64,000 bases of DNA from Acetobacteraceae bacterium (GTDB lineage: Bacteria > Pseudomonadota > Alphaproteobacteria > Acetobacterales > Acetobacteraceae): the NCBI GenBank assembly GCA_027487675.1, contig JAIYDD010000275.1, positions 1-64,000 of the forward strand, written 5' to 3'. The position numbers were made by a program, and so were the translations under genes. Below, one piece after another: positions 3,574 to 5,865 of this stretch. How positions within the stretch are numbered: the first letter of the stretch is position 1; each line of letters begins with the position of its first letter. The notes beneath the pieces were generated by a model. That model did not search any database and was not told the DNA's origin. It saw nothing but the letters and a program-made list of their open reading frames with translations.

Positions 3574-4191
3574 TCAGCTTGCGCCCGCTTGCCGTGACGG
3601 CATCAGGTGGTGCTCGAAGGCCTCGATCTCGGCGATGAGGGTGAGGGTCAGGCCGATCTCGTCAACCCCGCGCAGCAGGCAATCGCGGGCGAAGTTCGGA
3701 ATCGTGAAGGGGTGCGCCGCACCCGCCGCGTCCCGCAGCAGCAGCGCCGCGAGGTCCACCGCGAGCCACGCGCCCGGTGCGGCATGCAGGCCGGCGCGCA
3801 GCGCCTCCACCACCGGCCCCGGCAGCCGCACCGGCACAAGGCCGTTCTTCAGCGCATTGCCGAAGAAGATGTCGCCGAAGCCTTCCGCCACCACGGCGCG
3901 GATGCCGAGCGCGAGCAGCGCATAGACCGCCGCTTCCCGCGACGACCCCACGCCGAAGTTGCGCCCCGCCACCAGGATGCCCGCCTGGTCAAAGGGCGCG
4001 CGGTTCAGCACGAAGTCGGGCCGCTTCGCGCCGCCGGCGTCGAAGCGCAGGTCGTGGAAGCCATAGGTCGCGTAGCGTTCGTCGCGCGGCCGGCGCATCA
4101 GCCGCGCGGGGATGATCTGGTCGGTGTCGACGTTGTGCAGGTCGAGCGGCGCGGCGATCGCCTCGAAGGTGGTGAAGGGCTCGGGCATCAT
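3574..4191 (-). CDS. leuD: 3-isopropylmalate dehydratase small subunit-like (LeuD family)
   Basis: 205 aa, normal length for LeuD. This swivel domain pairs with LeuC to isomerise 2- and 3-isopropylmalate or hydrate related methylated dicarboxylates. Seen directly: the N-terminal DTDQIIPARLM substrate loop, NFGVGSSREAAVYALLALG and the GDIFFGNALKNGL segment. It lies downstream of the LeuC gene on the same strand but is separated by a 312-bp gap filled with tandem repeats, which is unusual because leuC and leuD are normally nearly contiguous. No leuB or leuA is nearby and the surroundings are catabolic, so this may be a second, dissimilatory copy; that is inference. Confidence 0.85.
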   Translation of the reverse strand: MMPEPFTTFEAIAAPLDLHNVDTDQIIPARLMRRPRDERYATYGFHDLRFDAGGAKRPDFVLNRAPFDQAGILVAGRNFGVGSSREAAVYALLALGIRAVVAEGFGDIFFGNALKNGLVPVRLPGPVVEALRAGLHAAPGAWLAVDLAALLLRDAAGAAHPFTIPNFARDCLLRGVDEIGLTLTLIAEIEAFEHHLMPSRQAGAS

Positions 4192-4194
4192 GTC

Positions 4195-4500
4195 ATCTCC
4201 GCGCGACCGGCTGCGCCCTCGGGTGCGCGGCGCCTCCGGCGCTTGCGCCCTCGGCCGGCCGGCTCAGGGTGCGTCTCCACGTGACCGGCTGCGCCCTCGG
4301 GTGCTCGGCGCCTCCGGCGCCTGCGCCCTCGGCCGGCCGGATCAGGGTGCGTCTCCGCGTGACCGGCTGCGGCCTCGGGTGCTCGGCGCCTCCGGCGCCT
4401 GCGCCCTCGGTCGGCCGGATCAGGGCGCGTCTCCGCGTGACCGGCTGCGCCCTCGGGTGCGCGGCGCCTCCGGCGCCTGCGCCCTCGGTCGGCCGGTTCA
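4195..4500. repeat. Four tandem copies of a 78-bp repeat between leuC and leuD
   Basis: Units begin at 4195, 4273, 4351 and 4429, each exactly 78 bp and differing at only a few bases; the last is slightly truncated before the leuC stop codon. Each unit carries internal dyads such as GGCGCCtccGGCGCC. Because 78 is a multiple of three, several reading frames stay open and create repetitive shadow ORFs, but none has a plausible start of its own. The array lies inside the transcribed spacer of a two-gene operon. Copy-number variation between strains would be expected for such an array. Confidence 0.95.
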
Positions 4501-4503
4501 CGA

Positions 4504-5865
4504 TCAGCCCTCCGCCGCCACCAGCCGCCCGGCCAGCGCCGATGCGGCCGCGGAGGCCGGCGAGACCAGGTGCGTCCGCGCCCCGCGCCCCTGCCGCCCC
4601 ACGAAGTTCCGGTTGGAGGTGGAGGCGCAGCGCTGCCCCTCGCCCACGCTGTCGCCGTTCATCGAGACGCAGAGCGAGCAGCCGCTCTCCTCCCACGCCG
4701 CGCCGGCGTCCGCGAAGACGCGGTCCAGCCCCTCCGCCTCCGCCGCGCGCTTCACGGCGGAGGATCCGGGCGAGACCAGCATCGGCACCGCCACGCGCCG
4801 CCCGCGCAGCACCGCGGCGGCCGCCCGCAGATCGTCCAGCCGGGCATTGGTGCAGGAGCCGAGGAAGACGCGGTCGATGCGGATGTCGCTCATCGCCTCC
4901 CCGCCCGACAGGCCCATGTAGTCCAGGCTGTGGCGCCAGGCGGCGGCGCGGGCGGCGTCCGGCGCGTCCTCGGCGCGGGGGACGCGGCCGGAGAGCGGGG
5001 CGGCTTCCTCCGGGCTGGTGCCCCAGCTGGCCATCGGCGCGATGGCGGCGGCGTCCAGCGTCACCTCCGCATCGAAGACGGCCTCGGCATCGCTGGCCAG
5101 CGGCGCCCAGCCCGGCGGCGTGAAGGGCCGGCCGGCGAGCCAGGCGCGCGTCACCTCGTCGGGGGCGACCATGCCGGTGCGGGCGCCGGCCTCGATCGCC
5201 ATGTTGCACAGCGTCAGCCGCGCCTCGACCGACAGCGCGCGCACCGCGGGGCCGGCGAATTCGATGGCCGAGCCGGCCGCGCCGCCGGTGCCGATCGCGG
5301 CGATCAGCGCCAGCGCCATGTCCTTGGCGCCGCTGCCGGCAGGCAGCGCGCCCGTGAAGCTCACGCGCATCTGCCGCGGCATGGCCTGCCAGATGGTCTG
5401 GGTGGCCAGCACATGCGCCACCTCGCTCGCGCCGATGCCGAAGGCCAGCGCGCCGAGCGCGCCATGGGTCGAGGTGTGGCTGTCGCCGCAGACCACCGTC
5501 ATCCCCGGCTGGGTCAGGCCGAGCTCCGGCCCCGCGACATGCACGATGCCCTGGTCGGGGTCGGCCAGGTCGAAGGCACGGATGCCGGCGGCCCGCGCAT
5601 TCGCCTCGAAGGTCTCGATGATGCCGCGGATCTCGGGGTCCGCGACGGCGTCGGTGCGGCGGGCGCGGGTCGGCGCGTAATGGTCGCCGAAGCCGAAGCT
5701 GAGGTCGGGCCGCCGCACCTTCAGCCCGCGCGCGCGCAGCATGTTGAAGGCGTGGAAGCTGCCCTCGTGGAAGTAGTGGCGGTCCACGTAGAGCAGGCAG
5801 AGCCCGTCGTCGCGCCAATGCACGACATGGGCGTCCCAGATCCTGGCGAAGAGGGTGCGGGCCAT
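4504..5865 (-). CDS. leuC: 3-isopropylmalate dehydratase large subunit-like (LeuC/aconitase family)
   Basis: 453 aa. Holds the [4Fe-4S] cluster of a two-subunit hydro-lyase. The three cluster ligands are visible: C338 in LGSCTNARLDD and C396/C399 in GCSLCVSMNGD. CGDSHTSTHGALGALAFGIG is the family substrate/cluster loop. The N-terminal part (RHYFHEGSFHAFNMLRARG) departs from the canonical housekeeping LeuC consensus as I recall it (IHEVTSPQAF), pointing to a divergent paralogue that might act on methylmalate/citraconate-type substrates. The ATG at 5865 starts MARTLFARIWDAH; the longer 909-aa track ORF runs antisense through the next gene and is spurious. Confidence 0.88.
   Translation of the reverse strand: MARTLFARIWDAHVVHWRDDGLCLLYVDRHYFHEGSFHAFNMLRARGLKVRRPDLSFGFGDHYAPTRARRTDAVADPEIRGIIETFEANARAAGIRAFDLADPDQGIVHVAGPELGLTQPGMTVVCGDSHTSTHGALGALAFGIGASEVAHVLATQTIWQAMPRQMRVSFTGALPAGSGAKDMALALIAAIGTGGAAGSAIEFAGPAVRALSVEARLTLCNMAIEAGARTGMVAPDEVTRAWLAGRPFTPPGWAPLASDAEAVFDAEVTLDAAAIAPMASWGTSPEEAAPLSGRVPRAEDAPDAARAAAWRHSLDYMGLSGGEAMSDIRIDRVFLGSCTNARLDDLRAAAAVLRGRRVAVPMLVSPGSSAVKRAAEAEGLDRVFADAGAAWEESGCSLCVSMNGDSVGEGQRCASTSNRNFVGRQGRGARTHLVSPASAAASALAGRLVAAEG

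Follow-up and report, generated by a model that had tools for sequence, protein, structure and literature searches.

The window analysed here, a stretch of 64,000 nucleotides from an Acetobacteraceae bacterium, carries on its reverse strand the two subunit genes of 3-isopropylmalate dehydratase: leuC (4504–5865; large subunit), the upstream gene, and leuD (3574–4191; small subunit), the downstream gene. Both identities were confirmed by NCBIfam profiles (NF009116 at 651 bits, along with the gene call, for leuC; NF002458 at 197 bits and TIGR00171 at 163 bits for leuD). The spacer between them is 312 nt long and is occupied throughout by a tandem array on the same strand. TRF, run on the 64-kb window, places this array at 4196–4500, with a period of 78 bp, 3.9 copies, 94% matches, no indels and a score of 533; the second-strongest array scores 82. 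The earlier note had described just this, four units of 78 bp filling the spacer, and it was also right that the unit length is a multiple of three. Counted from leuC, the units are unit 1 (4430–4500, 71 bp), unit 2 (4352–4429), unit 3 (4274–4351) and the leuD-proximal unit 4 (4196–4273), and they show 3–7 pairwise differences. The low divergence had been read as a sign of recent expansion, which at 4–9% holds only in a relative sense. The copy number of four is provisional, since the assembly is a draft of 288 contigs and other arrays of the same family (see below) lie at contig ends.

On the coding strand, leuC ends in GGGCTGA, followed by TC and then by the GTG of an open frame of 102 codons (4193–4501, from translation) that runs across the array. 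The frame thus starts 2 nt after the leuC stop, and its own TGA lies 1 nt before the leuD ATG. By itself an open frame of this length is weak evidence, since stops are rare at 81% GC, and a protein profile search with the bridging frame gave no protein family match. All units have a motif similar to GCGGAGA at the downstream end; that of unit 4 (GCGGAGA) is positioned as a putative Shine-Dalgarno sequence of leuD. The genome has two leuD-type loci, 44% identical to each other: the one in the window (3574–4191) and L037 (G000:C3:7791-8360), which is near trmD. The genome may therefore have another leucine enzyme besides the leuCD pair of the window.

The array is a lineage-specific insertion. 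In all 14 congeners that could be searched, leuC and leuD are separated by a few nucleotides at most, or overlap, and they are likewise end to end in named species of Roseomonas, Falsiroseomonas and Humitalea, as the earlier note had supposed to be normal for these genes.

What, then, was inserted? When the array was compared by BLAST with its own genome and with congeners, the matches were short intergenic segments that share an architecture and not one sequence. The common element is about 66 bp long (78 bp with its linker at leu) and consists of a 10-bp outer stem (P1), a 4-bp stem (P2) and an apical stem. Its core, AGGGCG[C/G]AG...GAGCACC, is conserved, and so is a TGA bulge on the 3' side, with AATC after it. 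A covariance model, R1, was made from an alignment of twelve dispersed copies that excluded the leu units. In this seed alignment, 13 of 25 pairs are changed on both sides, and 94% of the cells pair, compared with 33–42% in slid controls. Among 127 distinct aligned copies, two-sided changes affect 20 of 24 pairs, 93% are paired (33–43% when slid), and the covariation score is 0.40, against no more than 0.07 for slid structures.

The leu units are divergent copies of this dispersed hairpin element. They are the top four R1 matches in the window, at 41.6 bits for unit 2 (element at 4360–4422, E 2.3e-7), 39.6 for unit 3 (4282–4344, E 6.9e-7), 37.9 for unit 1 (4436–4502, E 1.7e-6) and 25.3 for unit 4 (E 0.0016), where only the apical core at 4219–4251 is matched; the next match in the window scores 19.1 bits. 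Their E values, 2e-7 to 0.0016 in the window, become 1.9e-5 to 0.135 genome-wide. (The seeds of R1 came from BLAST matches of the leu array, so the similarity in core sequence is partly circular; the tests of structure and context are independent of it.) The leu array is nevertheless an atypical member of the family, since its frame is not the one used by most members and its stop context is CTGA. Its units have the core intact, a shorter and bulged P1, and no TGA bulge. Strong internal dyads, which had been ascribed to the unit in general, are borne out for units 1, 2 and 3 (fold z −2.55, −2.44 and −2.21, that is, −2.2 to −2.6); unit 4 folds no better than shuffled sequence (z −0.29), and is not folded as the rest of the family is.

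The element is widespread in its own genome, where at least 67 R1 matches were found at E≤1 (a lower bound, from the 150 first-look candidates that were scored), many of them in other tandem arrays. There are at least ten arrays. These include three units of 69 bp (C274), three of 72 (C126), two of 63 (C70 and C81), three of 63 (C202 and C118), five of 59 (C41) and two of 51 (C116), as well as arrays with a period of 58 (C82 and C120) and one with a period of 87 that is broken by contig ends (C206/C278). C206 (L061) and C278 (L069) both begin inside 87-bp arrays, and on comparison with G009 and G011 their flanks correspond to a single orthologous junction; they are probably the two sides of one longer, collapsed array. 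R1 matches occur in all 15 genomes of the genus (the Roseomonas/Falsiroseomonas group), with 3–42 per genome at 1e-3, and at family level in 11 of 150 genomes at 1e-7, scattered over other genera. In a sample of 288 other genomes of the class there was no match at 1e-6, a result that doubles as a control for specificity. The number of copies differs between species at two orthologous sites, being two, one and one at L006, L011 and L013, and at least four, two and one at L069/L061, L189 and L217, in a sample of one genome per species in which the own genome is a draft with arrays at contig ends.

A shorter hairpin of 44 bp, GCGTGATCGCCGAAGGGCGGAACGCCCGAAGGCGTGAATCACGC, is present in at least six identical copies in the own genome (L085 and L090–L094, at 1501–1544 in each), which frequently lie at the 3' ends of genes or between convergent ones. 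Probably it is a related REP-like element whose dispersal is more recent. At L083, L086 and L092 the similarity extends beyond the short hairpin, over about 245 bp on its upstream side and about 50 bp on its downstream side (84–98% identity), and at these loci the hairpin is thus embedded in a larger repeated element.

The element occupies a characteristic position. Among 103 arrays and single copies, 72 lie in sense and 8 in antisense orientation between co-directional genes (gene calls and starts are from our own codon-usage gene caller, and the starts are approximate). This bias in orientation could be produced by asymmetry of the target alone. In the 52 tight cases, the element typically starts 0–4 nt after the upstream stop, most often 1 nt after it, and the downstream start falls within the 3' arm of P1 or a few nucleotides beyond. 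The upstream stop is a start-overlapping NTGA at 46 of these 52 junctions; among the remaining co-directional junctions of these loci the figure is 28 of 67 (p 9e-8). A reading of the hairpins as terminators was rejected: in the copies read they are not followed by a T-run, and the copies sit between closely spaced co-directional genes.

Dispersal, together with filled and empty sites, suggests that the family is or, probably, once was mobile. No transposase was found: the Y1 transposase (PF01797) is absent from all 15 genomes, while control genomes were positive. Nor is there a family-wide target-site duplication, the mean longest flank match being 3.93, compared with 3.91 for shuffled pairings. 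Single cases do resemble target duplications (CATGAC at L206, CATGAA at L217), and the 8-bp direct repeats CTCACTTG that flank L245 and the 7-bp CTCATGT that flanks L216 could be such duplications as well.

One alternative is a neutral one, in which a selfish or slippage-born repeat is kept because it is harmless and has no effect on leuD, and the covariation reflects correction of DNA quasipalindromes by template switching. The scattered distribution and the lineage-specific insertion at leuCD agree with this, as do arrays that occur at convergent gene ends too. On the other hand, the structure is kept at orthologous sites that are about 80–90% identical between species, and with compensatory changes: CCCCGTCGAT...ATCGATGGGG at L229 corresponds to GTTCATCGAT...ATCGATGAAC at L233, CCCATCCGAT...ATCGGATGGG at L213 to CGCATGCGAT...ATCGCATGCG at L223, and compensatory changes connect the orthologous copies at L213, L223 and L240. 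Moreover, among the non-Watson-Crick pairs G.U outnumbers A.C by 39 to 15 (22 to 5 in P1 and P2 of full-length copies; p ~7e-4, which is optimistic, since the count includes some orthologous loci). Such an asymmetry is unexpected from strand-symmetric correction of DNA, and the excess of G.U points to sense RNA rather than DNA as the structured molecule. A purely neutral repeat is a possibility that deserves some weight, if a doubtful one.

How would translation proceed through such an insertion? In 38 non-orthologous cases, the frame opened by the start that overlaps the upstream stop was followed downstream. It enters the next gene, or ends no more than 8 nt from its start, in 32 of the 38; for the other two frames at the same junctions the figures are 9 and 13 (p 9e-8 and 9e-6). 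Sixteen of the 52 tight copies are in frame with the downstream gene and form N-terminal extensions at the junctions. The clearest example comes from the rimM-trmD junction, which was compared at the DNA level in 15 genomes, with the TrmD frame confirmed. In most congeners this is a plain ATGA overlap, gcATGACCTGGCGC; in the own genome ATGAC is followed by an in-frame element and then by CTGGCGC, which adds 24 codons to TrmD. At the same junction in G011 (L256) there is an 18-nt in-frame insertion that resembles the 5' part of the hairpin element, apparently what is left of a copy since lost. The idea that selection maintains a conserved peptide was considered and rejected, as members of the family use more than one reading frame. 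The leu array reads the element in a different frame from most members, and the leuC stop, CTGA, is not a start-overlapping NTGA.

In all eight tight intercistronic arrays the period is a multiple of three (leu 78, C274 69, C126 72, C70 63, C206/C278 87, L189 72, L220 78 and L006 81), as against 4 of 9 other arrays (p 0.02, for a grouping into tight and other arrays made post hoc, after the data had been seen).

Taken as a whole, the leuCD spacer most probably contains a dispersed hairpin element, repeated four times in tandem, that acts as a translated linker at operon junctions, and we hold this reading with reasonable confidence. Elements of this family would settle in sense orientation at stop/start junctions of co-directional genes, preferably at NTGA overlaps. 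A start overlapping the upstream stop, or just after it, would then open a frame that leads through the hairpin to the next gene or to its start codon; ribosomes would melt the hairpin and pass on to that gene, and we propose that the element is tolerated at junctions because translation is not broken. At leuCD, most likely, a single copy landed directly behind the leuC stop and was amplified in steps of 78 bp that preserved the frame, and the resulting frame of 102 codons would hand ribosomes from leuC to leuD. On this reading the frames would be translated and would keep the genes coupled, and the arrays would have grown by slippage or unequal exchange.

A more ambitious version would make the element a mobile translational-coupling cassette, in which a ribosome-melted hairpin replaces the overlap with a translated linker and the number of tandem copies determines the ratio between the two proteins of the operon; this is a tentative idea at best. 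For leuD itself, copy number might affect translation or mRNA stability; that it tunes leuD is speculation.

Hairpins at the end of leuC might instead act after transcription, in the manner of REP/BIME elements, by affecting mRNA stability or stalling ribosomes, so that the levels of leuC and leuD are uncoupled. Tandem copies would strengthen the effect, and translation would be incidental. The placement 0–4 nt after stop codons, the sense orientation, the excess of G.U pairs and the predicted folds of about −44 kcal/mol all suit this explanation. In E. coli, according to work cited in PMC5082802, REPs that lie no more than 15 nt from a stop codon have been reported to cause ribosome stalling and decay. 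However, frame continuity and periods in multiples of three are unexpected for untranslated elements, in-frame N-terminal fusions such as that of trmD put the hairpin within coding sequence, and no RAYT gene is present. We consider this explanation unlikely. The family does share with REP/BIME elements and CGTC-tagged palindromes a short, GC-rich, dispersed palindromic hairpin near stop codons, but it lacks a recognised GTAG/CGTC end tag and a RAYT, and its tandem copies are direct and not alternating. An origin from RAYT/REP systems was rejected on the lack of Y1 transposase in the 15 genomes. CGTC repeats have been reported missing from Acetobacteraceae (PMC3733652).

The proposal of the earlier note, a phase-variation-like switch in copy number dedicated to leuD, is very improbable: the 78-bp units are near-identical and copy number does differ between species at the two orthologous family sites, but the element and its arrays are found at many unrelated junctions, steps in multiples of three nucleotides keep the frame rather than switch it, 4–9% divergence implies that turnover is not very fast, and the genome has a second leuD-type locus. 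The search of the genome for further units that the note had called for found dozens of dispersed copies and a total of at least ten arrays, which is largely the outcome the note had named as refuting its idea, a common, plain intergenic element unrelated to the operon.

The translated-linker reading finds its closest parallel in the MIRUs (mycobacterial interspersed repetitive units), whose original description reportedly noted a preference for DTGA sites. Both families consist of dispersed, often tandem intercistronic units at start codons or stop/start overlaps. MIRUs are apparently mobile and insert at start codons, which couples a reading frame inside them to the gene at a spacing of −4 nt (PMC12548453). 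The present family likewise lies at co-directional stop/start junctions in one orientation (72 vs 8, 0–4 nt from the stop), with a DTGA-type site and a coupled frame (46/52 vs 28/67; 32/38), while the leu site has CTGA with a GTG 2 nt later. It differs in its covarying P1/P2/apical hairpin, in the many copies that are fused in frame with the downstream gene, and in occurring in another phylum. The element works like MIRUs, but no homology was detected: the best R1 match in four mycobacterial records, at E 0.29, was no better than background. Rickettsia palindromic elements (RPEs), like the present family alphaproteobacterial palindromes, are known to insert in frame in genes in a way compatible with the product (PMC10969869). 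However, RPEs are about 150 bp long, encode a conserved peptide and lie within ORFs, whereas the present element is about 66 bp long, lies at gene junctions and is read in several frames. Neither a CGTC tag at an end nor a conserved RPE peptide is present in the alignment, in which more than one reading frame is used. Rfam covariance models had no match at E≤1 in seven element-bearing loci, and no earlier description of the element was found in the open-access literature on Roseomonas. This family of short structured elements seems not to have been described before.

In a clade of Acetobacteraceae, the family appears to colonise junctions within operons while leaving translation unbroken, a second, apparently independent case of the MIRU strategy, and it also extends proteins at the N-terminus, as in TrmD. 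For annotation it carries a risk, in that automatic pipelines may call spurious small ORFs or misplace gene starts at the elements. The arrays are ready VNTR typing loci, and junctions that have one, two or several hairpins in different species are natural experiments on translational coupling.
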